A stretch of DNA of 64,000 nt, from NCBI RefSeq assembly GCF_009498275.1, contig NZ_CP045643.1, forward strand, positions 8,246,001 through 8,310,000, written 5' to 3'. Below the pieces are notes generated by a model, which was not told where the DNA came from, made no database searches, and saw nothing but the letters and a program-made list of their open reading frames with translations. This stretch comes from Streptomyces fagopyri. Lineage in GTDB: Bacteria; Actinomycetota; Actinomycetes; Streptomycetales; Streptomycetaceae. Shown piece after piece: positions 22,445 to 64,000 of the stretch (positions are counted from its first letter, which is position 1; each line of letters starts with the position of its first letter). A program made the position numbers and the translations under genes.

Positions 22445-22657
22445 GTGACCAATCCCTTTGACGATCCGGACGGCGTCTTTTTCGTCCTGATCAATGATGA
22501 ACTTCAGTACTCTCTGTGGCCGGCATTCGCCGATGTTCCTCCTGGTTGGGCGGTCGCCCGTGAGGCCGGAACTCATCGGGACAGTGTCGCATTCATCGAG
22601 GAGAACTGGACGGACATGCGTCCCAAGAGCCTTGTCGACCGCATGGCCGGACACTGA
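22445..22657 (+). CDS. MbtH family protein
   Basis: A 70-aa protein from the GTG at 22445, with a GGAG site 8 nt upstream. The family signature is complete: NPFDDPDGVFFVLINDELQY, SLWPAFADVPPGW and NWTDMRPKSLVDRM, including the invariant tryptophans. MbtH proteins bind adenylation domains of NRPSs and are needed for their solubility and activity. It is the first gene of the long plus-strand cluster run, and its client is presumably one or more A domains of the two NRPS genes 29 kb downstream. Confidence 0.95.
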   Translation: MTNPFDDPDGVFFVLINDELQYSLWPAFADVPPGWAVAREAGTHRDSVAFIEENWTDMRPKSLVDRMAGH

Positions 22658-22662
22658 ATCGA

Positions 22663-22687
22663 CCGGTTCGAAGATTCTTGGAACCGG
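22663..22687 (+). other. Possible hairpin between mbtH and hmaS
   Basis: A 7-bp inverted repeat (CCGGTTC / GAACCGG) with an 11-nt loop lies in the 51-bp gap between mbtH and hmaS. It could be an attenuator or RNA-processing site that sets a different level for mbtH, or it may be chance. Confidence 0.3.
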
Positions 22688-22708
22688 CGGAAAACGAAAG
22701 GAAGAACA

Positions 22709-23812
22709 GTGGCAGGAAGCACGGCAGCCCAGTCTTTGACGCTCAGTCATGTGGAGATGTACGTCGGCGACGCCCCGTCCGTCGCCGCCGACTTTGTGGA
22801 CGGCTACGGGTTCGAGGTCTTCGCAACCGCCGAGGGACATGGCCCCGAAGGCGCGGCACGGTCCCTGGCGCTGCGTCACGGCGGGATTGTGCTGGTGGTC
22901 ACCGAAGCCCTGGATTCGGCACACCCGGCCGCGGGCTTTGTGGAGCGGCACGGAGACGGTATCGCGGACATCGCGCTCACCGGGGCGGACGTACGCGCCG
23001 CGTTCCGTCACGCGGTCGAGCGCTCTGCCGTCGTGCTCACCGAGCCGGCGGAGCGGGACGGGTACGTGACGGCGGTCCTGGCCTCCGGCTTCGACGACGT
23101 TCGGCACACCCTGGTGCAGCGCCCCGAGGACGAGCGGGAGCGACCCGGCCCGCTCCCGGGATTCGTCCCCGCTCCGGAGGCCGGACCCGCGCCGGCAGAG
23201 TCCCCCGAACTGACGCTGCTGGACCACATAGCGGTCAGTGTCAGGACCGGCGAACTCGCCGACAGCACCACCTATTACGAGCGGGTCTTCGGCTTCCACA
23301 CGGTCTACGAAGAGCTCATGGTCCAGGGCACTGAGGCGATGGACTCCAAGGCGGTGCGCAACGCGGCTGGGGACGTCACGTTCACCGTGCTGGCTCCGAG
23401 CGCCGACCACGACGCCGGACACATCGGGGACTTCCTCGAGCGCCATGGAAGTGGTGGCATTCACCACCTGGCCTTCGCCACCGAGGACATCGCCACCTCC
23501 ATAGCGCGGCTCACCAAGCGCGGCGTCAACTTCCTGGAGACGCCCGACGTGTACTACGAACGTCTGGCGGACCGGCTGACGCTGGCCCGGTATTCGGCCG
23601 CGGAACTGCGCGAGGCCGGGATCCTCGCCGACGAGGACCACGATGGCCAGCTCTTTCAGATCTTCACCCGCACCACCCACCCCCGGCGGACCCTGTTCTT
23701 CGAGATCATCGAGCGGCTGGGCGCCGACACCTTCGGCAGCGGCAATGTCCGTGCCCTGTACGAAGCCGTGCAGGCCGAGCGGAGCGACGGTTCGCAGGAG
23801 CGCGTGCAGTGA
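22709..23812 (+). CDS. hmaS: 4-hydroxymandelate synthase
   Basis: A 367-aa Fe(II)-dependent dioxygenase of the HPPD/HmaS family with two vicinal-oxygen-chelate domains. The metal ligands are His173 (LLDHIAVS), His253 (GIHHLAFA) and Glu332 (LFFEIIER). The ending FGSGNVRALYEAVQAER and the N-terminal LSHVEMYVGD match HmaS of glycopeptide clusters better than HPPD. It converts 4-hydroxyphenylpyruvate to 4-hydroxymandelate. Its stop overlaps the next gene by 4 bp. The next two genes complete the 4-hydroxyphenylglycine pathway, which settles HmaS over HPPD. Confidence 0.93.
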   Translation: MAGSTAAQSLTLSHVEMYVGDAPSVAADFVDGYGFEVFATAEGHGPEGAARSLALRHGGIVLVVTEALDSAHPAAGFVERHGDGIADIALTGADVRAAFRHAVERSAVVLTEPAERDGYVTAVLASGFDDVRHTLVQRPEDERERPGPLPGFVPAPEAGPAPAESPELTLLDHIAVSVRTGELADSTTYYERVFGFHTVYEELMVQGTEAMDSKAVRNAAGDVTFTVLAPSADHDAGHIGDFLERHGSGGIHHLAFATEDIATSIARLTKRGVNFLETPDVYYERLADRLTLARYSAAELREAGILADEDHDGQLFQIFTRTTHPRRTLFFEIIERLGADTFGSGNVRALYEAVQAERSDGSQERVQ

Positions 23813-24978
23813 CTGCCACCACCGTGTCCCCGGCGACCACGAACGCGTGCCTGCTCACCCCGGCCGACGCGGAAGAGCACGCACGGCTGGCTCTGCCGCC
23901 GACGGTCGAGCGGTTCGTCAACGGAGCGGCCGGCACCGGGCTCACCTTGCGTGCCAACCGTGAGGCGTTGGACCGGGTGTGCCTGGTGCCGCGTGTGCTG
24001 ACGGACGTGTCGTCGCCGGTCACCGCCGGACGCCTGCTCGGCGTCGATGCCAAGATGCCGGTGGCGGTGGCACCCATGGCCTACCAGCGGGCCGTCCACG
24101 AGGACGGGGAGCTCGCCACCGCCGGTGCGGCCCGCGATCTCGGGGTGCCGTTCACGGTGAGCATGTTCAGCAGCCACAGCGTCGAGGAGATCGCCGCGGT
24201 GGGCGCCACGATGTGGTTCCAGGTGTACTGGCTCAGAGACCGGGGCCGCACTGTGGAACTCCTGCGCCGCGCCGAAGCGGCCGGCTGCGTGGCGGTGATG
24301 CTGACTGTGGACACCCCTCGAATGGGGCGGCGTCTGGACGATCTGCGGGCCGGGTTCAGCCTTCCCGACGGGGTGAAAGCCGCCCACTTCCGCGACCTCT
24401 CCGGGCCCGGGCCGGGCGACCCCACGCCCGGGGTGAGCGAAGTCGCAGCCCAGACCGCAGCTTTGGTGGATCCTTCGCTGAGCTGGTCGGACATCGAGTG
24501 GCTGCGGGAGCAGACACGTCTGCCGCTGATCCTCAAGGGGGTCCTGGATCCGCTGGACGCGCGGCGGGCGGTGCGGCACGGGGTGGACGCCGTGGTGGTG
24601 TCCAATCACGGTGGCCGCCAACTCGACGGGGCGGTGGCGAGTGTCGATGCCCTGCCCGCCGTGGCCGAAGCGGCTGACGGCTGCTGTGAGGTGCTGCTGG
24701 ACAGCGGTGTGCGCAGCGGCACGGACATCATCAAGGCGGTCGCTCTCGGGGCCACGGGCGTCCTGCTGGGACGCCCCGTGCTGTGGGGGCTGGCCGCGGG
24801 AGGCGGCGAAGGGGCGAAGCACGTGCTCCGTCTCGTCCAAGAGGAGCTGGAGCACGCTCTGGCCTTGGCGGGCTGCCCGGACCTCGGCGCCGCCTCGCGG
24901 CTGCGCACCGTCACAGCGGACGGGCGGACCGGGGCTGTCCTGGAACGGGCCAGGGGCGACATGGTGGGTGCTCGGTGA
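23809..24978 (+). CDS. hmo: 4-hydroxymandelate oxidase
   Basis: A 389-aa FMN-dependent alpha-hydroxy acid oxidase starting at the GTG at 23809 (overlapping the hmaS stop). The catalytic histidine lies in VVSNHGGRQLDGA (His267, with Arg270). The FMN phosphate site LDSGVRSGTDIIKAVALGA is conserved. It oxidises 4-hydroxymandelate to 4-hydroxybenzoylformate. It overlaps the aminotransferase gene by 4 bp, indicating translational coupling. Confidence 0.93.
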   Translation: MTATTVSPATTNACLLTPADAEEHARLALPPTVERFVNGAAGTGLTLRANREALDRVCLVPRVLTDVSSPVTAGRLLGVDAKMPVAVAPMAYQRAVHEDGELATAGAARDLGVPFTVSMFSSHSVEEIAAVGATMWFQVYWLRDRGRTVELLRRAEAAGCVAVMLTVDTPRMGRRLDDLRAGFSLPDGVKAAHFRDLSGPGPGDPTPGVSEVAAQTAALVDPSLSWSDIEWLREQTRLPLILKGVLDPLDARRAVRHGVDAVVVSNHGGRQLDGAVASVDALPAVAEAADGCCEVLLDSGVRSGTDIIKAVALGATGVLLGRPVLWGLAAGGGEGAKHVLRLVQEELEHALALAGCPDLGAASRLRTVTADGRTGAVLERARGDMVGAR

Positions 24979-26321
24979 AGCTCTCCACCTCAGCCCCTGA
25001 ACTCGCTCCCGTTCCGGGAAGCGATCTGTCCCTGGAGGATCTCCACCCCGCAGTCGGCGATCCGTTGCTCGGATCGATGAACTTCCTCAACGAGATCGCC
25101 GGCCGGTATCCCGGGGCGCTGTCTCTCGCCGCGGGCGCTCCCTACGAGGGTTTCTACGACGTCGAGGACGTCCATCGCTGTCTGCGGCGGTTCTGCGAGC
25201 ATCTGCGTGCCGATCGCGGGTACAGCGAGGAGCAGGTCAGGCGGACGCTGCTCCAGTACGGCAGGACCAAGGGCATCGTGCATGACCTGATAGCCCGTCA
25301 CCTGTCGGTCGACGAAGGCATGGACGCGGACCCGGAGTCGATCGTCGTCACAGTGGGCTTCCAGGAGGGGCTCTTCCTCACCCTGCGAACTTTGCGCCGT
25401 GACGCCCGCGACGTGCTGCTCGCCGTCACTCCCGCCTACGTCGGGGCGACCGGCGCCGCCCGCCTGCTGGACATGCCGGTGCATCCGGTCGCCGGCGGCC
25501 CCGGCGGCGTGGATACCGACGACCTCGTTCGGCACATCCGGGCCGCCCGGGGCGCGGGACTGCGCCCCAGAGCCTGCTACCTCGTGCCCGACTTCGCCAA
25601 TCCGTCCGGCGTGCGGATTCCCCTGGATCTCCGGCACGAACTGCTCGACATCGCCCGGCGCGAGGACATCCTGCTGCTGGAGGACAACCCTTACGGTCTC
25701 TTCCCGCTGAAGGGTGAGCGACTGCCTACGCTGAAGGCGCTGGACACCGCACGCAGTGTGGTCTACCTGGGCTCCTTGTCCAAAACCGTCTTTCCCGGCA
25801 CCCGGGTCGGGTACGTGATGGCCGACCAACTGGTTGCGGACGGTGCGGGCGGGTCCGTGCGGCTCGCCGATCATCTGGCGAGGGTCAAGAGCATGATCAC
25901 GGTCAACACCTCGCCGTTGGCGCAGGCTGTCGTGGGAGGGCGGCTGCTGGAGCACGGCTGCAGTCTGGAGCGCGCCAACGCTCGGGAGGCCGTGTTCTAC
26001 CGGCGAGGTCTCGAGCGGTTGTCCGACGGCCTCGCCCGCCGTTTTCCGGCACCGTGCCCTGTCACATGGAATGCCCCCGATGGCGGTTTCTTCGTAGTCG
26101 TGTCGGTCCCGTTCGAGGTGACTGACGCCCTGCTGGAGCGCTCGGCGCGCGAGCACCGAGTGCTCTGGACGCCTCTGCACCCCTTCTACGACAGTCCCGG
26201 GCCGATGCGCCAACTGCGCCTGTCGTGCAGTGCGCTGCCGCCTGACGGGATCGACGAGGCCCTGGACCGGTTCGCGGTGTTCGTCCGCGCCCGCGCGGCC
26301 GAGGACGGAATCCGATGGTGA
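24975..26321 (+). CDS. hpgT: 4-hydroxyphenylglycine aminotransferase
   Basis: A 448-aa fold-type I PLP aminotransferase from the GTG at 24975; the longer upstream frame overlaps hmo and is not used. The PLP lysine is Lys270 in GSLSKTVFPGTRVGY. The cofactor region DNPYG and the motif VPDFANPSGVRIPL are conserved. It transaminates 4-hydroxybenzoylformate to L-4-hydroxyphenylglycine, usually with tyrosine as donor, which regenerates 4-hydroxyphenylpyruvate for HmaS. With hmaS and hmo this is a full Hpg cassette. Confidence 0.92.
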   Translation: MKLSTSAPELAPVPGSDLSLEDLHPAVGDPLLGSMNFLNEIAGRYPGALSLAAGAPYEGFYDVEDVHRCLRRFCEHLRADRGYSEEQVRRTLLQYGRTKGIVHDLIARHLSVDEGMDADPESIVVTVGFQEGLFLTLRTLRRDARDVLLAVTPAYVGATGAARLLDMPVHPVAGGPGGVDTDDLVRHIRAARGAGLRPRACYLVPDFANPSGVRIPLDLRHELLDIARREDILLLEDNPYGLFPLKGERLPTLKALDTARSVVYLGSLSKTVFPGTRVGYVMADQLVADGAGGSVRLADHLARVKSMITVNTSPLAQAVVGGRLLEHGCSLERANAREAVFYRRGLERLSDGLARRFPAPCPVTWNAPDGGFFVVVSVPFEVTDALLERSAREHRVLWTPLHPFYDSPGPMRQLRLSCSALPPDGIDEALDRFAVFVRARAAEDGIRW

Positions 26322-27943
26322 GGCACGGCCCGCGGCGAGCGGCCGACCGGGCACCGGACATGAGAAAGGCAGGCGTGAGGGACGGCATGGACGTCGAGGA
26401 GCTGGTGGACCCGCTGCTGGCACAATTCCTGGAGGAGACCCGTCTGCGTTCCGAGACACAGGTCCCGCCGAGGGCTACCGAACCGGGGCCGCGTCCCGAG
26501 ATGCATCAGCGCTGGCTCGCCCTGGCCGAGGTCCTCTCCGTCGGGTACGGCGAGCGGGCCGGAGCGGTCATCACCAAGGGGCGGACCCTGATGCGGGCCC
26601 GCACCACCCCGTCCGCCGGCGCCCTCTACCCCTTCGACGTCCTGGTCGCCTTCCAGTCGACCGCCGGCTACCGGATCTACCACTACGACGCCGCGGACTG
26701 CTGCCTCCACAGCCCCTTCCCGGTCGGCGACCAGGACCTGGCCGCCCTGCTCGGCATGCCGCAGGCCTGGGAGCGCATGCCCGCCGCGGTGGTCGCCGTC
26801 GTCGGACGGCCGTGGAAGTCGATGCGCAAGTACGGCCGGCGAGGCTATCGCTACACCCACCTCGATGGGGGGCACGCGGCGGCGAACATCGCGCTCGCCG
26901 CCGCCGACGCCGGATTCACTCCCGCTGTCCACCTGCGGTTCGACCGGCATCGCGCGGCACGGCTTTTCGCCGTGGACGGCCGGTGCCGGGAGCCGCAGGC
27001 GCTCGTCGCCCTCTCGGCACCCGCAGGGGGACAGACATGGCAAGGCGCGGACGGCGCAGGTCATGCCAACCCGTTCGCCGTTCCCGTGTGGCGGCACGAG
27101 GGCGATGCCGGCTCGGAGCGACCGGACGCCGCGGAATGTGACAACTGGTTGGATATCAGCTCAATAAGTACGTATGGCGGAGAGTCGTCTCCGCCTCCGC
27201 ACTGGGGGACTGTTCGTTCCGTGACCTGTGCGGACGAAGCAACAGACACAGCGGACGACATCCTGTTGCCTGGGGCCGATACTGCCCCGACGCCACCGTT
27301 CCCGCAGGTGGCGGTGGAGCGCACCTCGGCCAAGGGCTTCTTGCCCGGGGCACTGGACCGCGCCTCCCTGGGACGCGCGCTGGCCGGCCTTCGCGGGTCC
27401 CTCGCGGTCGACAGCGCGGACGGCCCCCTCGTCGGCCTGCGCGTCCTGGCCCGGACCGTCGAAGGGATCGCACCCGGCAGTTATGCGTACGTGCCGCAGA
27501 CCCACGCGCTGAGCCCGCGAGGCGGCGACGGCGCGAGTTCCGAGTCGGTCGCCGCGGCCTGCGTCAACCAGGACGTGGTCCGCGACGCAGCGGTCCTGAT
27601 AGCTCTGCACGCGCCGATGCGCGCGTTGCGGGGACGGCACGGACGGCAGGGACTGGCCGAGCTGCACTTCCACGCGGCTGCCGCCGCCCAGCGGATCTGC
27701 CTGGGCGGATGCGCCCACGACGTCGGTGTCACCTGCCTGGGCGGATTCGACGCTGAGCGGATCGCGGAACTGACCATGCTGAACAGCTCGGAAGAGGTCA
27801 TCTACGTCCTCGCCGCAGGTGTCCCCGACGCGTCGGCCGTCAAGTGGGACCGCGCCCCGATCGCCTACAGCCACGGCGCACGCCGCACGAGCGGCGCGCC
27901 CGAACAGATACGAGGAGAAGAGTCAGTGGTGGTCCCACGGTGA
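26315..27943 (+). CDS. SagB/ThcOx-type nitroreductase-like dehydrogenase (two domains)
   Basis: 542 aa from the ATG at 26315 (7-bp overlap with hpgT); ATGs at 26360 and 26387 are alternatives. Two nitroreductase-fold halves are visible. The N-terminal one (about residues 55-230) has RTTPSAGALYPFDVLV and GGHAAANIALAAADAG. The C-terminal one (about residues 335-520) has ELHFHAAAAAQRICLGG and YVLAAGVPD. SagB-type enzymes use FMN to oxidise azolines to azoles, or act as general oxidases on carrier-bound substrates. No cyclodehydratase or RiPP precursor is near, so the substrate here is probably an NRPS/PKS intermediate; this is inference. Confidence 0.82.
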   Translation: MVRHGPRRAADRAPDMRKAGVRDGMDVEELVDPLLAQFLEETRLRSETQVPPRATEPGPRPEMHQRWLALAEVLSVGYGERAGAVITKGRTLMRARTTPSAGALYPFDVLVAFQSTAGYRIYHYDAADCCLHSPFPVGDQDLAALLGMPQAWERMPAAVVAVVGRPWKSMRKYGRRGYRYTHLDGGHAAANIALAAADAGFTPAVHLRFDRHRAARLFAVDGRCREPQALVALSAPAGGQTWQGADGAGHANPFAVPVWRHEGDAGSERPDAAECDNWLDISSISTYGGESSPPPHWGTVRSVTCADEATDTADDILLPGADTAPTPPFPQVAVERTSAKGFLPGALDRASLGRALAGLRGSLAVDSADGPLVGLRVLARTVEGIAPGSYAYVPQTHALSPRGGDGASSESVAAACVNQDVVRDAAVLIALHAPMRALRGRHGRQGLAELHFHAAAAAQRICLGGCAHDVGVTCLGGFDAERIAELTMLNSSEEVIYVLAAGVPDASAVKWDRAPIAYSHGARRTSGAPEQIRGEESVVVPR

Positions 27944-29106
27944 GCAACAGCATCCTGTCCGCGCGCATGACAGACGCCCATCGCGAACTCGGGGAACGCG
28001 CCCGCGCCTACTTCACCCCGCGATGGCTGGAACAGTGGCGTGCCGCCCCCGGGGGCCCGCTCCGCAAGGACGTATGGCCCGAACTGGCCGAACGGGGATT
28101 TCTCGGCGTGTCCCTGCCCCGCGAACACGGCGGCCAGGGACTGGGACTGCTGGGCGCCCTGGTGGTGGGAGAGGCCCTGGCCCAGGTGGGCGACAGCGGC
28201 GTCGCACTCGGCATGCACGTCCACAACGAAGTCGCCGGCGAATGGCTCACCTCGGCGGCAGACCCGACGCTGCGTGAGCGCTACCTGCCGAAGCTGCTGT
28301 CGGGTGAACTTCTCGCCTGCCAGTGCGACACCGACCCCTCGGCACAGGAGCCGACCACCGCCGTACGGGACGGCGACCGCCTCATCCTCCGGGGACAGAA
28401 GAAGTTCGTAGTCAACGGTGCACAGGCCGACCTGTGCTTCGTCAGCGCGCGGCTCGACGGACAACCTGCCGTGGTCGTCGTCGAGAAGGACGCCCCCGGA
28501 GTCCGCGTGACCCACGCCTACGACAAGCTCGGCACCCGGTCGATCGACTCCGCGCTACTGGAGTTCGACGACGTCGAGGTGCCCGCGGACCGAGTGGTCG
28601 CCCGAAGCGGCGTCAGCCAGCTGATGCGCTGGAACAGAGTCATGTCCCGCATGAGGTTCCTCATTGCGGTGGACGCCTGGCTCATCCACCGGATGTTGCT
28701 GACCCACATCGTCGACTACTCCACCAACCGCGAACTGGGCGGGCGCGCGCTGTCGGCCTGGCCGATCAACGCCCACGCACTGGCGCGAGCCCGCGCCGAC
28801 CAGGAGCTGATGGAGGCGGGCATCACCGACGGCTACCTACGACTGACCGAAGGCGGCAGCACCGTCCCGGAGATCGCCGAACTCAAGTGGTTCTGCGTCG
28901 AGCGAGCCACCGAACTGGCCTCGTTGTCCACCGATCTCGAAGGCGGAGCAGGCTACATGTGGGACAGCGTCGCGCTGCGGGCCCACGCCCAACTGAGGGG
29001 ACTGCGAATGTCGGGCGGCAGCCAGACGACGATGCTCACCATCGCCAACCACAGCATGGCGTGCCGAGCCGAACTCGGCGACCAGGACCGCGCGGGCGTG
29101 GCGTGA
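27940..29106 (+). CDS. Acyl-CoA dehydrogenase family protein
   Basis: A 388-aa protein from the GTG at 27940 (overlap with the SagB-like gene). It has the full acyl-CoA dehydrogenase layout: an N-terminal helical domain (FLGVSLPREHGGQG), a middle beta domain (CQCDTDPSAQEPTTAVRDGDRLILRGQKKFVVN) and a C-terminal helical domain with GGAGYMWD. The usual ALTEP flavin-contact motif is replaced by QCDTDPSAQEP, and the catalytic glutamate is not obvious. It probably oxidises an acyl group on the carrier protein encoded two genes later. It overlaps the ligase gene by 1 bp. Confidence 0.88.
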   Translation: MSNSILSARMTDAHRELGERARAYFTPRWLEQWRAAPGGPLRKDVWPELAERGFLGVSLPREHGGQGLGLLGALVVGEALAQVGDSGVALGMHVHNEVAGEWLTSAADPTLRERYLPKLLSGELLACQCDTDPSAQEPTTAVRDGDRLILRGQKKFVVNGAQADLCFVSARLDGQPAVVVVEKDAPGVRVTHAYDKLGTRSIDSALLEFDDVEVPADRVVARSGVSQLMRWNRVMSRMRFLIAVDAWLIHRMLLTHIVDYSTNRELGGRALSAWPINAHALARARADQELMEAGITDGYLRLTEGGSTVPEIAELKWFCVERATELASLSTDLEGGAGYMWDSVALRAHAQLRGLRMSGGSQTTMLTIANHSMACRAELGDQDRAGVA

Positions 29107-30578: not shown

Positions 30579-30834
30579 CACCGACCGCACGGACCTGCAC
30601 CGCGAGATCGAGAGGCTGGTGGAAGTAGCGACAGGGCGAGTGGTCACCGCAGCCGACCTGCGCGCCGCGGACGGCGCGCTGGACCGGGCCGGGGTGAACT
30701 CCATCGGCTACATCAACCTGATGGAGGGCCTGGAGCTGCGCTTCGGTGCCGTCGTGGACCCCGAGGCCGACCCTCAGTACCTGATGTCGGTGGATTCCAT
30801 CGTGAGCTTCGTTCGCGCCCAGAAACGGCCGTGA
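30568..30834 (+). CDS. Stand-alone acyl carrier protein
   Basis: An 88-aa carrier protein. The phosphopantetheine serine lies in GVNSIGYINLMEGLE, a variant of the DSL motif with Asn before Ser. The C-terminal part (VDPEADPQYLMSVDSIVSFV) is longer than in simple ACPs. It overlaps the ligase gene by 10 bp, so it is the presumed substrate of that ligase and of the flanking dehydrogenases. Confidence 0.85.
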   Translation: MTADTDRTDLHREIERLVEVATGRVVTAADLRAADGALDRAGVNSIGYINLMEGLELRFGAVVDPEADPQYLMSVDSIVSFVRAQKRP

Positions 30835-30875
30835 CCCGTGGTGCCCCGCAACGGCAGTCCAAAGCAAGGAGAACC

Positions 30876-40843: not shown

Positions 40844-40863
40844 CCAGAACAGGAGCGGAAGAC

Positions 40864-41736: not shown

Positions 41737-41772
41737 GCCACACCCGCACACCCCCGAACCGGAGGAATGGCC

Positions 41773-42030: not shown

Positions 42031-42056
42031 CCGCTATCGGACCCATGGAGACCTGA

Positions 42057-50037: not shown

Positions 50038-50252
50038 TCGATCTCCTTTGTTCGGCCCCGGACACGGTCTGTTCCGGGAGGTTCATGTGGCCCTCTCTCG
50101 CCCGTTCGATGACTCGGGGACGGGCCGGAACCGCAGACCACGTGCCCTTCGCGAGGGTCTGGACATAACATCGCAAACGGCATCGAGCGGGCGGCGACCC
50201 AGCCGCGCCCGCTCGATTTCGAAACCTCAAGGTGCTGTCGCTCCGCAGAGGT

Positions 50253-51217: not shown

Positions 51218-51254
51218 CGACACAACGCGCAGCAGCATCACCAGGAGGTACTCC

Positions 51255-54410: not shown

Positions 54411-57400
54411 TGCCCGCCTCGTTCGCCCAGCGCCGCCTGTGGTTCCTGAACCAGATCGAGGGCGGATCCACCTACAACCTTCCCCTGGCGTTCCGGCTGT
54501 CCGGGACACTCGACGAGGACGCGCTGCGTGACGCGCTGGCGGATCTGACCGCCCGCCACGAGAGCCTGCGAACGCGGATAACCGACGTCGACGGGGAGCC
54601 CGTTCAGGACATCCTGCCCGCCGGGAGCGCCCGTCCTCTGCTCCAGGTGACCGAGACCACCGAGGCCGAACTGAACGGCCGTATGACCGAGGTGATCGGC
54701 ACGGGCTTCGATCTGGCTGTCGATCTGCCGTTGCGTGGCGAGTTGTTCGCCGTCGCTCCGGATGAGTGGGTGCTGGTGCTGGTGGTGCATCACATCGCGT
54801 GCGACGGGTGGTCGATGGGGCCGTTGTGGCGGGATCTGTCGGTGGCGTACGAGGCGCGGTGCGCGGGCCGGGCGCCGTCGTGGGAGCCGCTGCCGGTGCA
54901 GTACGCCGATTACGCCTTGTGGCAGACCGAACTCCTCGGCGAAGCGGGCAACCCTGGCAGCATCCTGGCCGGCCAGCTGGCCTACTGGCGCGGTGCCCTC
55001 GCTGGTCTTCCCGAAGAACTCGCCCTCCCCCTGGACCGGCCCCGCCCCGCGACGGCCAGTCACCGCGGCAGCCGGACCCCGGTGGTCATATCCGCTGCGA
55101 CGCACGCAGGACTGGCTCGACTGGCCCGGCAGCGCGGCGTGACCATGTTCATGCTGCTCCAGACCGCCGTGGCGGTAGTGCTGTCCCGGCTCGGCGCGGG
55201 CACCGACGTTCCCATCGGCACGCCGGTGGCGGGCCGCACGGACGAGCAACTGGACGACCTCGTCGGCTTCTTCGTCAACACACTCGTCCTGCGTACCGAC
55301 CTGTCCGGCGACCCCACGTTCACCGAACTACTGGACCGGGTCAGGGAGACATGCCTGACCGCCTTCGAACACCAGGACGTGCCCTTCGAGCGACTGGTGG
55401 AGGAGCTGGCCCCCGCCCGCTCCATGGCCCGACACCCGCTGTTTCAGGTCATGGTAGCCGTCCAGAACACCGACGACAGCAGCCTTCAGCTGCCCGGAAT
55501 CCAGGCCACGCCCCTCCCCGAGCCCCTCCCTGCCGCCAAGTTCGACCTCGACTTCGAGTTCCGCGAGCGGTTCGGTCCGAACGGCGAGCCGGCGGGCTTG
55601 GAAGGCAGGCTCGTGCACGCGGTCGAGTTGTTTGACGGTGAGTCGGTGGGGTTGGTGGTGGAGCGGTTGGTGCGGGTGTTGGAGGCGGTGGTGGCTGATC
55701 CGGGTGTGCGGGTGTCTGGGGTGGAGTTGTTGTCGGCGGAGGAGCGTCGGCGGGTGTTGGTGGAGTGGAATGACACGGGGGTTGAGGTGGGGGGCGGGGT
55801 GTTGTCGGGGTTGTTCGAGGCGCGGGTGGGGGAGTGCGCGGATCGGACGGCTGTGGTGTTCGAGGGTGTGGGTGTGTCGTATGGGGAGGTGAATGCGCGG
55901 GCGAATCGGTTGGCGCGTTTGCTGGTGGAGGGGGGTGCGGGGCCGGAGGGGGTGGTCGCGTTGGCGGTGCCGCGTTCGGTGGAGATGGTGGTGGCGCTGT
56001 TGGCGGTGGCGAAGACGGGTGCGGCGTATTTGCCGGTGGATCCGGAGTATCCGGTGGAGCGGATCGGGTTCATGGTGGGTGATGCGGGTCCGTCGTGTGT
56101 GGTGACGACGGGTGGGGTGGTGGCGTCGTTGCCGTCGGATGTGTCGTGTGTGGTGTTGGACGATGCGCGTACGGTGGAGGCGTTGGCGGGGTATTCGGAT
56201 GCGGATCTCAGTGATGCGGAGCGGTTGGCGCCGCTGGACGCGGCGCATCCGGCGTATGTGATCTACACGTCCGGCTCCACCGGCCGCCCCAAAGGCGTCC
56301 AGATCCCGCACTCCGCGGTGGTCAACTGCATCGCCTGGATGCAGCACCGATTCCGGATCTCCACGGACGACCGCATGCTGCAGAAGACCCCCTCAGGCTT
56401 CGACGTCTCGGTATGGGAGTACTTCTGGCCGCTCCTGTACGGCGCGACGCTCGTGGTCGCCCAGCCCGGCGGCCACCGCGACCCGGCGTACCTTGGCGAG
56501 CTGATCCGCCGAGAGCGCGTCACCATGGTGCAGTTCGTTCCGTCGATGCTCCAGGCCTTCATGCAGGACACGAACCTCTCCGACTGCGACAGCCTGCGCC
56601 TGGTCGTCTGCGGTGGCGAGGCGCTGCCCGAGGGGCTCGGCCGGGAATTCCGCGACGCCGCGGACACTCTTTTGGTCAACATGTACGGGCCCACCGAGGC
56701 CACCATCCAGATCACCGCATGGGACCTGGACATCGAGGCAGACGTCATCTCGATCGGCACCCCCGTCTTCAACACCCGCGTGTACGTCCTCGACCACCAC
56801 CTCAACCCGGTGCCGCCGGGCGCGGCGGGCGAGCTGTACATCGCCGGCGACCAGTTGGCGCGGGGTTATTTGGGTCGGGCGGGTTTGACTGCGGGTCGTT
56901 TTGTGGGGTGTCCGTTTGGTGGTGTGGGGGAGCGGATGTATCGGACGGGGGATGTGGTGCGGTGGGGTGTGGGGGGTGAGTTGGAGTTTGTGGGTCGTGC
57001 TGATGATCAGGTGAAGGTGCGGGGGTTCCGGATCGAGTTGGGTGAGGTGGAGTCGGCGCTGGGGCGGTGTCCGGGTGTGGGGCAGGCGGTGGCGGTGGTT
57101 CGGGAGGAGGGGGTTGAGAAGCGGCTGGTGGGTTATGTGGTGCCGGCTGTGGGTGGGGTTTCTTCGGGTGGGGTGCGGGAGTTTGTGGCGGGGGTGTTGC
57201 CGGATTACATGGTTCCGTCGGCGGTGGTGGTTCTGGATGACCTGCCGCTGACTCCGAACGGCAAGGTCGACCGCAAAGCGCTGCCGGTGCCGGATTTCAG
57301 TGCGGCGGTGTCCTTTCGTGCTCCGCGTACTGCCCGCGAGGAGGTGTTGTGCGGGGTGTTCGCCGACATTCTCAACCTTGCGTCGGTAGGGATCGACGAC

Positions 57401-60400
57401 TCCTTCTTCGAGTTGGGCGGGCACTCGCTGACCGCCACCCGGCTGGTCAGTCGAGTCCGCAGTGTGCTGGGTGTCGACCTGACGGTCCGCGCCCTGTTCG
57501 AGGCACCCACCGCCGCCCGCCTCGCCGAAAAACTGGCCGAGGCGGACGAGCAGGAACCCACAGCGTCGGTCCGCCCCGCTCTCGTCCCCACCCAACGACC
57601 CCACCCGGTACCCCTGTCACCAGCCCAGCAGCGCCTGTGGTTCATCGATCAAATGGAGGGTTCGAGCCCCTTCTACACCATGCCCTTCGCGTTCCGCCTG
57701 TCCACGGAACCCGACACCCAAGCCCTACGGGAAGCCCTGGCGGACGTCGTCGCCCGCCACGAGAGTCTGCGCACCGTCTTCCCCCAGACGAACGGAACAC
57801 CGAACCAACTGATCCGGGAGCCCGGCGAAGCACATCCGGACCTGATGGTCACCCCGGTGACACCACAGGAGCTGCCGTCAGCCGTTGCCGCCGCCGCACA
57901 GCGCCCCTTCGATCTGGCTGTCGATCTGCCGTTGCGTGGCGAGTTGTTCGTCCTCGCTCCGGATGAGTGGGTGCTGGTGCTGGTGGTGCATCACATCGCG
58001 TGCGACGGGTGGTCGATGGGGCCGTTGTGGCGGGATCTGTCGGTGGCGTACGAGGCGCGGTGCGCGGGCCGGGCGCCGTCGTGGGAGCCGCTGCCGGTGC
58101 AGTACGCCGATTACGCCTTGTGGCAGACCGAACTCCTCGGCTCGGAGTCCGCTCCCGACAGCCTCATCAACACCCAGGCCGCCTACTGGCGCACCGCCTT
58201 GGCCGGCCTTCCCGAAGAACTCAACCTTCCGCTGGACCGGCCCCGCTCGCCGCGTCCCTCCCACAGAGGAGACGGAGTCGAGGTTGCGATCGGCGCGGAA
58301 CTCCACCACGCCCTGACGACACTCGCGCACGACCATCAGGTCAGTGTGTTCATGGTGTTCCAGGCCGCGTTCGCCTGCGTGCTGTCCCGGCTCGGCGCGG
58401 GCACCGACGTTCCCATCGGCACGCCGGTGGCGGGCCGCACGGACGAGCAACTGGACGACCTCGTCGGGTTCTTCGTCAACATGTTGGTCCTGCGCACCGA
58501 CCTGTCCGGCGACCCCACCTTCCGCGACCTGCTGGCACAGGTACGCGAGACGAATCTGTCCGCCCACGCTCACCAGGACCTGCCCTTCGACCGTCTCGTC
58601 GATCTTCTGAACCCGCACCGTTCCACCTCCTGCCACCCCCTTTTCCAGGTAATGCTCGCCCTCGACAACACCGTTGAGACCCGCCTGGACCTGACCGGGA
58701 CAACTGTCACCGGATACCCGGTGAAAACCGGCGTCGCCAAGTTCGACCTGGCTCTGAACCTCCTTGAGCACCACACTCCCGATGGCCGGCCCGGTGGCAT
58801 CGACGGTGTCCTCCAGTACGCGGTCGAGTTGTTTGACGGTGAGTCGGTGGGGTTGGTGGTGGAGCGGTTGGTGCGGGTGTTGGAGGCGGTGGTGGCTGAT
58901 CCGGGTGTGCGGGTGTCTGGGGTGGAGTTGTTGTCGGCGGAGGAGCGTCGGCGGGTGTTGGTGGAGTGGAATGACACGGGGGTTGAGGTGGGGGGCGGGG
59001 TGTTGTCGGGGTTGTTCGAGGCGCGGGTGGGGGAGTGCGCGGATCGGACGGCTGTGGTGTTCGAGGGTGTGGGTGTGTCGTATGGGGAGGTGAATGCGCG
59101 GGCGAATCGGTTGGCGCGTTTGCTGGTGGAGGGGGGTGCGGGGCCGGAGGGGGTGGTCGCGTTGGCGGTGCCGCGTTCGGTGGAGATGGTGGTGGCGCTG
59201 TTGGCGGTGGCGAAGACGGGTGCGGCGTATTTGCCGGTGGATCCGGAGTATCCGGTGGAGCGGATCGGGTTCATGGTGGGTGATGCGGGTCCGTCGTGTG
59301 TGGTGACGACGGGTGGGGTGGTGGCGTCGTTGCCGTCGGATGTGTCGTGTGTGGTGTTGGACGATGCGCGTACGGTGGAGGCGTTGGCGGGGTATTCGGA
59401 TGCGGATCTCAGTGATGCGGAGCGGTTGGCGCCGCTGGACGCGGCGCATCCGGCGTATGTGATCTACACGTCCGGCTCCACCGGCCGCCCCAAAGGCGTC
59501 CTGGTCACCCACACAGGCATCCCAAGTCTGGTGGCAGCCCAGCGCGAGCGGCTGGCCGTCGACGCGCACAGCCGCGTCCTGCAGCTAGCCTCCCTCAGCT
59601 TCGACGCCGCGTCCGGAGAAATCCTCCGCGCCCTGCTGTCAGGAGCGGCACTCGTCGTCTCCCAGGAGGCCACCTCCGGCCCCGACGGACTGGCCCGCGT
59701 CCTCCACGAGGAATCAGTCACCCACGCCTTCATCCCGCCCGCACTCCTGTCCACCCTGCCCGAAGACGCTCTCGACGGGCTGAAGACCCTGACCGTCGGT
59801 GGTGAGGCGAGCCCGCCGGCCCTGGCGGAACCCTGGGCGACCGGCCGCCGGATGCTCAACGGCTACGGTCCCACCGAATCCACGGTCGTCGCGACCCACT
59901 ACCGGGTTCGCTCCGGGGACGCTGCCCTGGCCAGGACAGCGCTGCCGATCGGAACACCGATCTGGAACACGCGGGTCTATGTCCTGGACGCTCGGTTGCG
60001 GCCGGTGCCGGTGGGGGTTGCTGGTGAGTTGTACATCGCGGGTGCGGGTCTGGCGCGGGGTTATTTGGGTCGGGCGGGTTTGACCGCGGGTCGTTTTGTG
60101 GGGTGTCCGTTTGGTGGTGTGGGGGAGCGGATGTATCGGACGGGGGATGTGGTGCGGTGGGGTGTGGGGGGTGAGTTGGAGTTTGTGGGTCGTGCTGATG
60201 ATCAGGTGAAGGTGCGGGGGTTCCGGATCGAGTTGGGTGAGGTGGAGTCGGCGCTGGGGCGGTGTCCGGGTGTGGGGCAGGCGGTGGCGGTGGTTCGGGA
60301 GGAGGGGGTTGAGAAGCGGCTGGTGGGTTATGTGGTGCCGGCTGTGGGTGGGGTTTCTTCGGGTGGGGTGCGGGAGTTTGTGGCGGGGGTGTTGCCGGAT

Positions 60401-61552
60401 TACATGGTTCCGTCGGCGGTGGTGGTTCTGGATGACCTGCCGCTGACTCCGAACGGCAAGGTCGACCGCAAAGCGCTGCCGGTGCCGGATTTCAGTGCGG
60501 CGGTGTCCTTTCGTGCTCCGCGTACTGCCCGCGAGGAGGTGTTGTGCGGGGTGTTCGCCGACATTCTCAACCTTGCGTCGGTAGGGATCGACGACTCCTT
60601 CTTCGAGTTGGGCGGGCACTCGCTGACCGCCACCCGGCTGGTCAGTCGAGTCCGCAGTGTGCTGGGTGTCGACCTGACGGTCCGCGCCCTGTTCGAGGCA
60701 CCCACCGCCGCCCGCCTCGCCGAAAGACTGGGAGCACAGACCGCCGACACCGCCTTGGACGTGGTACTTCCTGTCAACGCGCGAGGGACAGGCGCCCCAC
60801 TCTTCTGCGTCCATCCCGCCGGCGGTCTGAGTTGGGTCTACGCCCGACTCCTTCCCCACCTCCCGAAGGACCAGCGGGTCTACGGCCTTCAAGCCCGTGG
60901 GCTCGCGCGTGAGGAGCATGTTCCGGCGACGGTCGAAGAGATAGCCGCGGACTACGTCCGGCAGATGCGCGACATCCAGCCGTCCGGCCCCTACCGACTG
61001 CTCGGCTGGTCCTTCGGCGGGGTCATCGCTCACACCGTGGCCGTCCAGCTCCAGCGGCAGGGCGAGAAGGTCGACTTCCTCGCCCTGCTGGACGCACACC
61101 CCGTACCAGGAAACGAGGACACGGACGACGACACTCAGCTGCTGGCAGATCTCGCCAGGTCGATCGGGGTGACCCTGGACGCCGGAGCGGCCGTCCAGGA
61201 CTTCCCCCGCACGATCCTCGATTGCCTGAGGACGACGGGTCACCCCCTGCAAGACCTACCGGTAGCCGCGCTCCTTGCGATGCGCCAGGACTACCGGATC
61301 GCCCGGGCCGCACGACGTACCCACGTTCCCGAGGTCTTCCGAGGAAGCGTGCTGGAGTTCACCGCCACCGGGAGTTCCCCGGAAGGCACCTCCCGGACTG
61401 GACGCTGGGCGGCCTTCGTCGAGGGAGACATCACACATCACCTGGTCATGTGCCGGCACGAGGACATGATGCAACCCCAACAACTGCCCCTCCTCGGGAA
61501 GATCCTGCGGGAAGAACTGCGCACGCTGCGCGGACCCACCCCGACGTCCTGA
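54407..61552 (+). CDS. NRPS 2: C-A-T-C-A-T-TE
   Basis: 2,381 aa. Module 1: C (HHIACDG at 128-134), A and T (Ser1007). Module 2: C (HHIACDG from 1195), A and T (Ser2072). The terminal TE has GWSFGG (Ser2202). Pocket residues read by eye are D-V-W-Q-V-G-M-I-Q for module 1 (close to the Thr/Ser type) and D-A-G-F-T-G-G-V-V for module 2 (unassigned). No epimerase or methyltransferase domain is present. Long stretches of modules 1 and 2 are almost identical in DNA sequence, with an unusual GT-rich codon style. The TE should release or cyclise the product. Confidence 0.95.
54707..54940 (+). repeat. C-domain repeat, NRPS 2 module 1 copy
   Basis: This 234-bp stretch around the HHIACDG motif is almost identical to 57908-58141 in module 2 (offset 3,201 bp), with only a few changed bases. 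It covers the donor/acceptor active-site region of the condensation domain. Confidence 0.9.
55617..56300 (+). repeat. C/A junction repeat, NRPS 2 module 1 copy
   Basis: 684 bp read as identical to 58818-59501 (offset 3,201 bp). It encodes the end of the C domain, the linker and the A-domain N-terminal part up to the [10 protein letters not shown] core. Identity stops abruptly where the substrate-binding region begins. Confidence 0.9.
56856..57530 (+). repeat. A/T repeat, NRPS 2 module 1 copy
   Basis: 675 bp essentially identical to 60051-60725 (offset 3,195 bp), with one T/C change noted near 56888. It runs from the A-domain end through the whole T domain to the linker. The first 500 bp also match NRPS 1. 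The divergent substrate core lies between this and the 55617-56300 repeat. Confidence 0.9.
58818..59501 (+). repeat. C/A junction repeat, NRPS 2 module 2 copy
   Basis: This is the second copy of the 684-bp block at 55617-56300. Translated products are the same residue for residue from the C-domain end ([12 protein letters not shown]) to [10 protein letters not shown]. Confidence 0.9.
60051..60725 (+). repeat. A/T repeat, NRPS 2 module 2 copy
   Basis: This is the second copy of the 675-bp block at 56856-57530. The region is extended upstream to 59966 where it also matches NRPS 1. It ends at the T-domain/TE linker. Confidence 0.9.
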
Positions 61553-61634
61553 AGCCACATTGCCGGACGGCCATGCCGCACACCCTTGCGGTGCCCCTTA
61601 TCTAGTGAAATCCACCGACTGGAGAAGTCACGCA

Positions 61635-62351
61635 ATGTCCCATCCCCTGCTCTTCCTTTGGGCCCACTCCCGCTCACGTTCCACCGCCTTCTTCCGCATG
61701 ATGCTGGAGCGCGGGGACTTCGTCGGCGTGCACGAGCCGTTCTCCAGCATCGTCGCCCAGGGCTACGCAGACGTCGGCGGGGAAAAGGCCACCACCGGCG
61801 CGGAGGTCCTCGACCTGCTGCAGACCATGGCGCAGAGCACCCCGGTCTTCGTGAAGGAAGTGACCGAGTACCGCTACGACGTCCTCGACGACCCGCGGCT
61901 CCCGCGGCTGGGAACACATACGTTCCTCGTCCGCCACCCCGAACCCACCATCGCCTCACACCACTTCATGAATCCGGAGGTGACCTGCGGCGAGATCGGC
62001 TATGAGCATGAGTACGAGACGTTCGATCTCATCCGGCAACGGACTCGTCGCACGCCCGTCCTCATCGAGGCAGAAGACCTCGTGGCGTCCCCCGAGACGG
62101 TCGTCGAGGACTACTGCCGGCGCACCGGAATCCCCTACGACCCTGCGGCCCTGTCGTGGAGCGAGGGCGAGCAGAACGAGTGGGAGCGCACGGCGAAGTG
62201 GCACCAGGACGTCGTCCGAAGCACCGGCTTCTCGGCCCGGAGCAACACCTACGCCGCCGACATGCACAACCACCCGCGTCTGGCTGAGTACTACGCCCAC
62301 CACCTGCCGTTCTACGAGCGTCTTCGGACCGCTTCGCCCCTGGACGCGTAG
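61635..62351 (+). CDS. Sulfotransferase family protein
   Basis: 238 aa from the ATG at 61635 (GGAGAAG site). The 5'-phosphosulfate loop is AHSRSRSTAFFRMM near the N terminus, and the 3'-phosphate-binding strand-turn is LVRHPEPTIASHHF (about residue 97). These are the PAPS-binding marks of the sulfotransferase fold. It probably sulfates a hydroxyl of the peptide or polyketide, for example a phenol or the hydroxyl derived from hydroxymalonate. cysD/cysN in the same cluster support the PAPS demand. The acceptor is unknown. Confidence 0.82.
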   Translation: MSHPLLFLWAHSRSRSTAFFRMMLERGDFVGVHEPFSSIVAQGYADVGGEKATTGAEVLDLLQTMAQSTPVFVKEVTEYRYDVLDDPRLPRLGTHTFLVRHPEPTIASHHFMNPEVTCGEIGYEHEYETFDLIRQRTRRTPVLIEAEDLVASPETVVEDYCRRTGIPYDPAALSWSEGEQNEWERTAKWHQDVVRSTGFSARSNTYAADMHNHPRLAEYYAHHLPFYERLRTASPLDA

Positions 62352-62415
62352 CGCGCTCCACGACCGATCCGACCGCACGCCGCTGAATACCGGCCTCCTG
62401 GAAAGAGACAGATAG

Positions 62416-63363
62416 ATGCGCATCGTTTTCATGGGCTACCAGACCTGGGGGCACCGGGTCCTCGAGCAGCTCCTGACTGCCGGGCACGAAATTCCCCTCG
62501 TCATCACCCACCCCGCCAGCGATCACGTCTACGAGACGATCTGGAACGACTCGGTTGTAGCCCTCGCCGAGCGCCACGGCATACCCGTCCTGGAGCGTGC
62601 TTACGCCAACGACGACGAGGTCGCCGCACTGCTTCGCGAACTCCGCCCCGAACTGCTGGTCTCCTCCGACTGGCGCACGTGGGTGGCGCCCGAGATCTAC
62701 AGCCTTGCCCAGCATGGCGCCATCAACGTCCACGACGCCCTACTGCCCCGCTACGGCGGCTTCGCTCCGCTGAACTGGGCGCTGATCAACGGCGAGTCCG
62801 AGGTCGGCGTCACGGCGCACTTCATGAACGAGCACTTCGACCTGGGCGACATCCTTGTCCAGAAGCGCGTCCCCGTCGACGACAAGGACACGGTCACCGA
62901 CCTGTTCCACAAGACGATCGACCTGTTCGGACCAGTCACCCTGGAGGCTGTCGACCAGATAGCCTCCGGCCGCACGGACTGGACCAAGCAAGACCCCAGC
63001 CAGGCCACCTTCTTCCACAAGCGGTCGGTCGAGGACAGCCGTATCGACTGGACCTGCTCAGCTCAGGAGATCGTCAACCTGGTCCGCGCCCAGGTGGACC
63101 CGTATCCCAATGCCTTCGCCTACTTCAAGGGCGAGCGCATCCGCATCCTGGCCGCGTCCGTTTCGTCCCAGCGACTGGGCGGCACCGCGGGCCGGGTCTT
63201 CCGACCCGAGGGCGAGGGCGTCGCGGTTGTCTGCGGGCCGGGCGCGCGCAAGGGAACGGAGTACGGACTGGTCATCGACCGACTCAGGACCGACAGCGGC
63301 GAGGAGTACCGGGGCGTCGACTTTTTCGCCCGGATGGGCGGCTACGTCACCAGCCGAGCCTAG
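62416..63363 (+). CDS. Formyltransferase (CchA-like)
   Basis: 315 aa. The formyltransferase domain has the motif INVHDALLPRYGGFAPLNWALINGE with the catalytic Asn-His-Asp set (HDALLPRYGG, GVTAHFMNEHFDLGD). The N terminus MRIVFMGYQTWGH and the ending FFARMGGYVTSRA closely resemble CchA, the N5-hydroxyornithine formyltransferase of coelichelin. It transfers formyl from 10-formyltetrahydrofolate. The acceptor here may be hydroxyornithine or another amine. No ornithine N-hydroxylase was seen in the window. Confidence 0.9.
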   Translation: MRIVFMGYQTWGHRVLEQLLTAGHEIPLVITHPASDHVYETIWNDSVVALAERHGIPVLERAYANDDEVAALLRELRPELLVSSDWRTWVAPEIYSLAQHGAINVHDALLPRYGGFAPLNWALINGESEVGVTAHFMNEHFDLGDILVQKRVPVDDKDTVTDLFHKTIDLFGPVTLEAVDQIASGRTDWTKQDPSQATFFHKRSVEDSRIDWTCSAQEIVNLVRAQVDPYPNAFAYFKGERIRILAASVSSQRLGGTAGRVFRPEGEGVAVVCGPGARKGTEYGLVIDRLRTDSGEEYRGVDFFARMGGYVTSRA

Positions 63364-63439
63364 CCGCGCCGTCGCCGACAGTGCCCGCCAGGAAAGCAGT
63401 GACGAAAGACCGCATCAGGTCAGGACGGAGTATGTCGTG

Positions 63440-64000
63440 ATGAGCTGGATCAGCAAGAAGCGCCGCGTCGCCGTGGTAGGCGCGGGCGCGGCGGGGACGC
63501 TGACCGCCGCCCGGCTGCTGAAGACGGCCGCGGCGCGCCGTCTTCCACTGGAGGTGGTGCTCGTCGATCCCTGCGCTGAGGCCGGGCGGGGTGTGGCCTA
63601 CCGAACCGAGGATCCGCGTCACGTTCTCAATGTGCCCGCGGGCAGGATGAGCGCCGACCCCGACGACCCGGACCACTTCACACGCTGGCTGGCGGAGCGG
63701 GGATGGCCCGAGGACGCGAGCACCGAATTCGTACCGCGGGCGCAGTTCGGAGCCTACCTGGCGCACGTACTGGCGGCAGCCGCCACCTGTCCTGGCCCGG
63801 CACGACTCCGCCGCAGAGCCGCGAGGGCAGTGGGCATCCGGCGCGGCGGGCCGGCACTCCAGCTCGACCTGGGACCGGACGGAATCCTTACTGCCGACGC
63901 GGTCGTCCTGGCCACCGGAAACCCCCCTCCCTCCCAAGCCTGGGCGCCGGCGGGGCTCCGCGGCGCCGAGGCATTCGTGCCCGATCCATGGGCACCGGGG
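63440..64000 (+). CDS. FAD/NAD(P)-binding oxidoreductase (truncated by window end)
   Basis: ATG at 63440 with GGACGGAG upstream; the frame is open to the end of the window (187 codons seen). The N terminus RVAVVGAGAAGTLTAARLL is a GxGxxG dinucleotide fold, followed by GRGVAYRTEDPRHVLNVPAGRMSADP, VVLATGNPPP and DPWAPG. This pattern belongs to the NAD_binding_9 group of FAD/NAD(P) proteins, not to the classic ornithine monooxygenases. The role is unknown. It is likely co-transcribed with the formyltransferase gene. Confidence 0.8.
   Translation, partial: MSWISKKRRVAVVGAGAAGTLTAARLLKTAAARRLPLEVVLVDPCAEAGRGVAYRTEDPRHVLNVPAGRMSADPDDPDHFTRWLAERGWPEDASTEFVPRAQFGAYLAHVLAAAATCPGPARLRRRAARAVGIRRGGPALQLDLGPDGILTADAVVLATGNPPPSQAWAPAGLRGAEAFVPDPWAPG

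Follow-up and report, generated by a model that had tools for sequence, protein, structure and literature searches.

A composite gene cluster in Streptomyces fagopyri joins a conserved hydroxymalonyl polyketide cassette to peptide synthetase and sulfation genes

Introduction

What product is to be expected from a locus that brings together genes for 4-hydroxyphenylglycine (Hpg) supply, a polyketide synthase (PKS) with its own hydroxymalonyl genes, three nonribosomal peptide synthetase (NRPS) modules, and enzymes of sulfation and formylation, and how did such a combination arise? The question is raised by a region of the Streptomyces fagopyri genome, a single contig of 8.88 Mb (NZ_CP045643.1), of which we analyzed a window of 64,000 nucleotides (bases 8,246,001–8,310,000; coordinates below are window positions unless stated otherwise) together with sequence beyond the window edge. 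Four parts make up the composite cluster found there: genes for Hpg supply, a hydroxymalonyl-PKS cassette (26315–45824), the cysDN pair, and a set of three NRPS modules accompanied by sulfotransferase and formyltransferase genes. It probably makes a sulfated acyl-peptide, and what is odd about it goes back to the joining of two pathways, a conserved hydroxymalonyl-PKS one and an Hpg/NRPS/sulfotransferase one. On the sequence evidence, we lean towards a single composite cluster for a sulfated, possibly formylated N-acyl tripeptide, in which a once stand-alone cassette would now supply an unusual acyl cap. An open literature search returned, among the matches listed, no described cluster with this gene set.

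Results

Architecture and extent of the cluster

The cluster spans from an MbtH gene at 22445 to about 66145, i.e., 2.1 kb beyond the window, with the right end set from position only; a preliminary description of the locus as 22445..64000 had the start right and the end too early. The genes fall into three runs. From mbtH to ppt2 (22445–45824), 19 genes follow one another with a spacing of −11 to +51 bp, and given this close packing, chance is no concern for the gene set; at the junction between the Hpg genes and the cassette, hpgT and the gene of a SagB-like protein overlap by 7 bp. The second run consists of cysD and cysN, and the third of nrps1, nrps2, the sulfotransferase gene, the formyltransferase gene, and a flavin adenine dinucleotide (FAD) protein gene.

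Functions were assigned by Pfam and NCBIfam profile scans. Every function named in the preliminary description was recovered in its place, the formyltransferase (see below) among them: HmaS/Hmo/HpgT, each matched in its place (a 4HPPD-family HmaS, an Hmo dependent on flavin mononucleotide (FMN), and a class-I aminotransferase HpgT); a discrete ligase/carrier system, with two AMP ligases, a free acyl carrier protein (ACP)-like protein (no Pfam match, recognized via orthologues), and the fusion of a ligase to a carrier domain; FkbK/J/I/H, matched as 3-hydroxyacyl-CoA dehydrogenase, ACP, acyl-CoA dehydrogenase, and FkbH; a PKS module with ketosynthase (KS), acyltransferase (AT), ketoreductase (KR), dehydratase (DH), and ACP domains, active-site residues included; C-A-T and C-A-T-C-A-T-TE synthetases (C, condensation; A, adenylation; T, thiolation; TE, thioesterase); and CysD, CysN, and a PF19798 sulfotransferase. 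The region also encodes the MbtH protein, the SagB-like protein with its two domains, a DapB-like reductase, and a third protein resembling acyl-CoA dehydrogenases, for which Pfam has no match. Two phosphopantetheinyl transferases (PPTases), two LuxR-type regulators, and a gene for an FAD/tetratricopeptide repeat (TPR) protein that is split by the window end complete the set.

A hydroxymalonyl-PKS cassette conserved among actinomycetes

The middle part of the cluster comprises the following genes, for which orthologue counts refer to the related loci described below.

26315..27943, + strand: two-domain SagB/ThcOx-like FMN oxidoreductase, first cassette gene (PF00881; TIGR03605, 112.3 bits; orthologue in 9 of 9 loci)
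27940..29106, + strand, start approximate: acad1, acyl-CoA-dehydrogenase homologue (PF02771/PF02770/PF00441; orthologue in 9 of 9)
29106..30578, + strand: lig1, stand-alone AMP-dependent ligase (PF00501, 146.9 bits)
30568..30834, + strand: acp1, free carrier protein (no Pfam match; tblastn orthologues in 9 of 9)
30831..31838, + strand: degenerate acyl-CoA-dehydrogenase-like protein of 335 residues, possible acad1 partner (no family match)
31835..32602, + strand: DapB-like reductase (TIGR00036, 111.2 bits, cut-off 122; structure 4f3y, E = 2.4e-24)
32569..33327, + strand, start approximate: ppt1, PPTase (PF01648, 39.9 bits; present in 4 of 9)
33324..35252, + strand: ligT2, fusion of an oxalyl-CoA-ligase-like AMP ligase with a carrier domain (PF00501 and PF00550)
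35252..40843, + strand: PKS module KS-AT-KR-DH-ACP (profile matches and active-site residues)
40840..41736, + strand: fkbK-like 3-hydroxyacyl dehydrogenase (PF02737, 193.6 bits)
41767..42030, + strand: fkbJ-like ACP (PF00550, 20.8 bits, exactly at cut-off)
42057..43262, + strand: fkbI-like acyl-CoA dehydrogenase (PF00441, 140.2 bits)
43259..44344, + strand: fkbH, glyceryl-ACP-forming HAD-family enzyme (TIGR01686, 268.6 bits, cut-off 146.65)
44341..45111, + strand: stand-alone thioesterase (PF00975, 154.3 bits)
45108..45824, + strand: ppt2, Sfp-type PPTase, last cassette gene (PF01648, 43.8 bits; HetI model below cut-off)

A collection of one genome per species (84,980 species), searched with two peptide patterns and a profile of the 30831–31838 protein with 18 relatives, yielded at least nine related loci, the pattern scan being liable to omit near kin of the window's genome. 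These loci, all from actinomycetes, belong to two other Streptomyces species and five other genera (Streptomyces fragilis, S. uncialis, Kitasatospora, Actinokineospora, Micromonospora, Actinomadura, and Saccharothrix). The order SagB-like gene, acad1, lig1, acp1, 30831–31838 gene, dapB, ligT2, PKS is the same in all nine; the Actinomadura contig stops inside the PKS gene, and an fkbK homologue comes next in the remaining eight. In each of the eight genomes searched, FkbH lies 3' of this homologue, with the TE next after fkbH in 8 of 8 loci, ppt2 in 4, and a LysE-type exporter in 6 (20 kb from there; three of the LysE matches were confirmed against Pfam). FkbJ and FkbI fell within the stretches read in four and three loci, respectively, and elsewhere would fall in unread gaps of 1.1–3.1 kb. 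Thus, the related cassettes share genes and order with the window, differing in the exporter: over the window plus 35 kb, nothing but a chance match of 28 residues (E = 0.025) was obtained with the LysE query. Conversely, hmaS, hmo, hpgT, cysN, the sulfotransferase, and the formyltransferase had no match in the sequence read near the related cassettes.

Across six concatenated proteins, the window copy is 53–68% identical to the related cassettes. In a tree of these proteins (3906 columns), it is sister to the copies of S. fragilis and S. uncialis (support 1.0), and midpoint rooting places the three copies within a Streptomyces/Kitasatospora part whose split from the remaining loci has a support of 0.961. 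With this placement, a cassette lacking the Hpg and sulfation genes looks like the ancestral state, and the composite like a derived one. Among 392 genomes of the genus, the acad1 profile gave one strong match, in the own genome; 53 of the 392 had any match at E ≤ 0.001, and the other listed matches, partial and weak from E = 2.6e-6 on, were read as ordinary acyl-CoA dehydrogenases. Likewise, a dapB query returned the own genome only, among 120 genomes searched (E ≤ 1e-20). The nearest named relative of a cassette protein, 94% identical, is from S. fagopyri, and the sulfotransferase has a relative that is 98% identical; the two seem to share one genome, so that the composite cluster is probably present in a second genome too.

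The starter-side enzymes depart from familiar types in several respects. In 10 of 10 aligned sequences, acad1 has Met or Leu at the isovaleryl-CoA-dehydrogenase-type site and Gly at the medium-chain-type site, i.e., the catalytic Glu at neither of these usual positions. Its possible partner, the 30831–31838 protein, has 29 relatives at E ≤ 1e-3 among 8000 candidates scored; its profile meets acyl-CoA dehydrogenases in the middle domains only and weakly (best E = 0.0028), and the helix-sheet-helix layout of its AF2 model (mean pLDDT 77.6) would be compatible with an acyl-CoA-dehydrogenase fold. Lig1 carries an A4-like FTNGLAF motif where amino-acid A domains carry FDxS, and lacks the Asp235 of such domains, while the GVNSI motif of ACP1 is conserved, its Ser being kept in 9 aligned sequences. 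The reductase is named DapB-like, not DapB, because its 111.2 bits fall short of the equivalog cut-off; its H..K motif is kept in 10 of 10 sequences and aligns with DapB structures, in which we take the His and Lys to be catalytic. The best solved relatives of LigT2 are oxalate-CoA ligases (416 bits to 5ie0), and Ser replaces the His of the three solved oxalate-CoA ligases aligned.

Downstream, the PKS alignment shows the KS Cys in 10 of 10 sequences and the AT Ser, KR Tyr, DH His and Asp, and ACP Ser in all 9 that reach that far. The AT motifs GYSLG and HAFH do not decide whether hydroxymalonyl-ACP is accepted. FkbI keeps its catalytic Glu (EGST), unlike acad1. The genes for the ACP, the acyl-CoA dehydrogenase, and the 3-hydroxyacyl dehydrogenase are adjacent, with no room for a methyltransferase in the gene spacing. 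Genes for hydroxymalonyl-ACP are listed in a legend of a published study (PMC3469384).

The cassette resembles two groups of systems. As in the FK520-type fkbH–K and zwittermicin-type supply, FkbH, ACP, acyl-CoA dehydrogenase, and 3-hydroxyacyl dehydrogenase stand in a row and feed a type I PKS. It differs in that an FkbG-type methyltransferase is absent between fkbK and the TE here, and between fkbH and the TE in the 8 relatives read. Further, the PKS consists of one module only, equipped with KR and DH, and the cassette includes a ligase/ACP/SagB/DapB set not known from those pathways. With anatoxin AnaB/C/D and prodigiosin RedW/PigA, it shares a stand-alone ligase, a free carrier, and an enzyme of acyl-CoA-dehydrogenase fold upstream of a PKS step. 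However, the scores of acad1 with the RedW and PigA models, 91 and 76 bits, are far below the respective cut-offs of 650 and 500, and, in contrast to those starter systems, acad1 is without both catalytic Glu sites and has a degenerate neighbor, and lig1 is without Asp235.

Hpg supply in the operon of the cassette

Four genes precede the cassette in the same run.

22445..22657, + strand, GTG start: MbtH-like NRPS helper (PF03621, 76.9 bits)
22709..23812, + strand: hmaS, probable 4-hydroxymandelate synthase, Hpg supply (TIGR01263, 299.3 bits)
23809..24978, + strand: hmo, FMN-dependent hydroxymandelate oxidase (PF01070, 415.7 bits)
24975..26321, + strand: hpgT, Hpg aminotransferase (PF00155, 85.3 bits)

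The model matched by HmaS is that of the 4-hydroxyphenylpyruvate dioxygenase (HPPD) family (TIGR01263), and the HmaS/HPPD distinction comes from neighborhood and similarity. A second hmaS-hmo-hpgT set lies in the same genome at about 674,084–677,600, with identities to the window set of 49, 58, and 61%; the window HmaS is 49% identical to the HmaS-like gene of that set, as against 36–38% to a gene at 5.72 Mb that resembles ordinary HPPD. Because of the second set and the separate HPPD-looking gene, we take the window genes as a real Hpg triad. As in the glycopeptide, calcium-dependent antibiotic (CDA), and nocardicin pathways, HmaS, Hmo, HpgT, and MbtH are adjacent; unlike those pathways, the cluster has a three-module NRPS only, no A domain with the Hpg code, and no P450 family among its Pfam matches.

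Three NRPS modules headed by a starter-type condensation domain

The peptide synthetases are encoded by two genes.

51255..54410, + strand: NRPS1, C (starter type, EntF/MxcG-like)-A-T (hand-read code DSYLWGVLF)
54407..61552, + strand: NRPS2, C-A-T-C-A-T-TE (hand-read codes DVWQVGMIQ, Ser/Thr-like, and DAGFTGGVV)

The best models for NRPS1 are MxcG (736 bits), general NRPS (596), and EntF (578). Its C domain has no upstream module and must therefore take an acyl donor. A-domain codes were read by hand with PheA numbering, and scores against solved structures were informative for module 2 alone among the three A domains. The A domain of module 2 outscores those of modules 1 and 3 on Txo2 (464 vs 360 and 337 bits), FscH (459 vs 324 and 346), and EntF (395 vs 282 and 310), all three presumably Ser/Thr-type domains. 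Modules 2 and 3 are identical across eight 50-residue blocks flanking the A-domain core, whereas the cores are 28–40% identical; therefore, either the substrate cores were swapped or the flanks were homogenized. The nucleophile of the NRPS2 TE is Ser (GWSFG). A nocardicin-type β-lactam formed by a C domain with an extra His was ruled out, as there is no HHH motif.

This half of the cluster has a relative of its own. In another genome (G275), a 2374-residue NRPS that is 48% identical to NRPS2 along its length is followed by a 59–60% identical sulfotransferase, and its last A core is similar. The G275 enzyme has two modules by alignment, vs three here, and the cassette, Hpg genes, cysDN, and formyltransferase have no match in the 80 kb read.

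Sulfation, formylation, and the right edge

The genes on either side of the NRPS pair are as follows.

47218..48159, + strand: cysD, sulfate adenylyltransferase small subunit (TIGR02039, 440.6 bits)
48159..49466, + strand: cysN, sulfate adenylyltransferase large subunit, without kinase domain (TIGR02034, 542.3 bits)
61635..62351, + strand: sulfotransferase (PF19798, 52.5 bits)
62416..63363, + strand: formyltransferase (PF00551 and PF02911; PRK06988, 222 bits, cut-off 316)
63437..66145, + strand: FAD/NAD(P)-binding and TPR protein (PF13454, 130 bits; PF14559), a member by position only

A second cysN, 67% identical to that of the cluster, lies at 2.49 Mb in the same genome. NRPS-type genes occur near sulfotransferase relatives in 10 of 10 neighborhoods read, of 15 found (7 of 7 read among 11, and 3 of 3 among 4); at L109, L110, and G391 the matches are of adenylation type only, and L113 is the sole locus where cysDN is nearby as well. 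The cluster-borne cysDN beside a genomic cysN, together with these neighborhoods, supports a predicted dedicated role of sulfation. The CysC family is absent from the Pfam and NCBIfam matches in the cluster, so that the formation of 3'-phosphoadenosine 5'-phosphosulfate (PAPS) would need a general adenosine 5'-phosphosulfate kinase. As to formylation, the preliminary description had spoken of a CchA-like formyltransferase; the enzyme is a formyltransferase, but a likeness to CchA in the sense of hydroxyornithine formylation is not supported, the nearest models being PRK06988 and ArnA, both below cut-off. No ornithine N-hydroxylase/oxygenase family is among the Pfam matches of the cluster, the FAD gene adjacent to the formyltransferase being PF13454.

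Regulators and flanking sequence

Two regulatory genes are present.

45864..46895, − strand: LuxR-type regulator (PF00196, 30.2 bits)
50253..50966, − strand, start uncertain: small LuxR-type regulator (PF00196, 53.2 bits)

Among 29 reading frames counted, a TTA codon occurs only in ppt2 (45108–45824) and in a 171-codon reverse open reading frame (ORF; 49522–50037, − strand), a possible bldA control point. To the left of the cluster, an ORF at 21498–22040 resembles by eye a broken transposase, with no Pfam match, and no plasmid match was found.

Discussion

Having considered the parts, we can return to the product of the whole. Lig1 would load an acid without α-amino group onto ACP1, where the SagB-like enzyme, the pair of acad1 and its partner, and the DapB-like reductase would reshape it. 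The PKS would then join this starter, coming from ACP1 or from the carrier of LigT2 itself, with hydroxymalonyl-ACP, and KR and DH would yield an enol, in effect an α-keto-acyl thioester. The starter-type C domain of NRPS1 would couple the resulting acyl cap to residue 1; residue 2 would be Ser/Thr-like, and Hpg may be one of the other residues or a precursor. CysDN of the cluster would serve to provide PAPS, the sulfotransferase would sulfate the peptide, and the TE would release it. In the relatives, the TE of the cassette and the LysE exporter would release and export a free product, and we propose that the exporter is missing from the window because the cassette product is consumed inside the cluster. 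The preliminary description of a sulfated and/or N-formylated lipo- or aryl-peptide without described match is supported as regards a sulfated, possibly formylated acyl-peptide; however, the middle half of the cluster is not unique, being a conserved and mostly stand-alone pathway, and the NRPS-sulfotransferase half has its own relative.

Several observations weigh against this scheme. Near residue 1176, the window KR reads TGGLGGMS, as against TGGxG(G/A)xG with a final Gly in 8 relatives, so that KR activity is not assured. The window retains the cassette TE, which is also compatible with a free acid being released. The Hpg code, taken as DIFHLGLL, is carried by none of the three A domains of the cluster, and no substrate is assigned to Lig1, to LigT2, or to the A domains of modules 1 and 3. 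NRPS-type matches lie near three of the related cassettes (L016, L088, with the adenylation part only, and L089), and therefore it does not hold that the cassette is always alone; these neighbors, in Saccharothrix, Actinokineospora, and Micromonospora, are possible further mergers. Finally, the order of events depends on the midpoint root.

Some of these points suit a different arrangement, which we consider unlikely while recognizing that it survives best among the alternatives: the cassette may make a free amino-acid-like block that its own TE releases for activation by an NRPS A domain (e.g., that of module 1, DSYLWGVLF), the N-terminal acyl group coming from elsewhere. The constancy of the TE directly after fkbH in 8 of 8 loci and its retention in the window fit this arrangement, as do the LysE-type exporters of 6 of 8 relatives, suggestive of a free amino-acid-like product, and the His and Lys kept by the DapB-like reductase, in line with a cyclic imine acid being reduced. 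Yet the starter-type C domain of NRPS1 needs an acyl donor, no other donor was seen in the cluster, and an aminotransferase is absent among the cassette genes.

Two adjacent, independent pathways, the cassette with the MbtH and Hpg genes in front and the NRPS-sulfotransferase cluster, each giving a separate product, appear improbable. The existence of stand-alone cassettes and of the G275 NRPS-sulfotransferase locus without cassette or Hpg matches is in keeping with such independence, and in the window the two halves form distinct operons, set apart by 1.4 kb in which a divergent regulator lies. Against this, the Hpg genes and MbtH, which serve NRPSs, belong to the operon of the cassette, the LysE exporter was not found in the window plus 35 kb, and both halves seem retained together in the second genome.

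Hardly credible is a monobactam-like route in which, as in the sulfazecin pathway, module 3 would activate 2,3-diaminopropionate, the sulfotransferase would N-sulfonate it on the carrier, and the TE would close the β-lactam: the sulfotransferase does stand directly after the NRPS-TE, as in G275, where SbnA/SbnB genes are close by, the last-module cores are alike by hand-reading (DAGFTGGIA in G275, DAGFTGGVV here), and of 8 genomes tested SbnB is above cut-off only in the own genome (at 8,369,368) and G275, but the own SbnB belongs to a different NRPS operon, 57 kb past the end of the cluster, a like-composed operon (by eye) adjoins the G275 locus, the 6 remaining genomes tested, each of which has a sulfotransferase relative, lack SbnB above cut-off, and the TE has Ser, not the Cys of sulfazecin. 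With the sulfazecin cluster, the locus thus shares an NRPS-TE plus a sulfotransferase, and differs from it in the TE nucleophile, in having Hpg and PKS parts in addition, and in that diaminopropionate genes are not in the cluster, SbnA and SbnB giving no match in the window plus 35 kb downstream. The separate NRPS operon with SbnB occupies genome positions 8,362,342–8,370,381, and its G275 counterpart has Pls/PosA, SbnA, and SbnB model matches. Azaserine as the cassette product, considered since S. fragilis carries the cassette, was set aside, azaserine being reportedly linked to hydrazinoacetate genes (PMC10445470). For azatyrosine, also considered, the open literature search returned no paper.

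The composite cluster for a sulfated N-acyl tripeptide, which we prefer, would provide a traceable case in which a complete pathway has become a sub-cluster within another, and in which each half has relatives available for comparison. The cassette itself is a conserved pathway for which no described product was found in the open literature searched, and it is small enough for expression as a whole. As a speculative and rather unlikely extension, it may constitute a conserved, undescribed route from an acid and hydroxymalonyl-ACP to an α-keto acid longer by two carbons (or, after ring closure and DapB-type imine reduction, to a cyclic amino acid), employing a two-subunit dehydrogenase without the usual catalytic base and taken over here to make the cap in a pathway to a sulfated peptide. 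If this keto-acid logic is true, the cassette would represent a new way to α-keto or non-protein amino acids.

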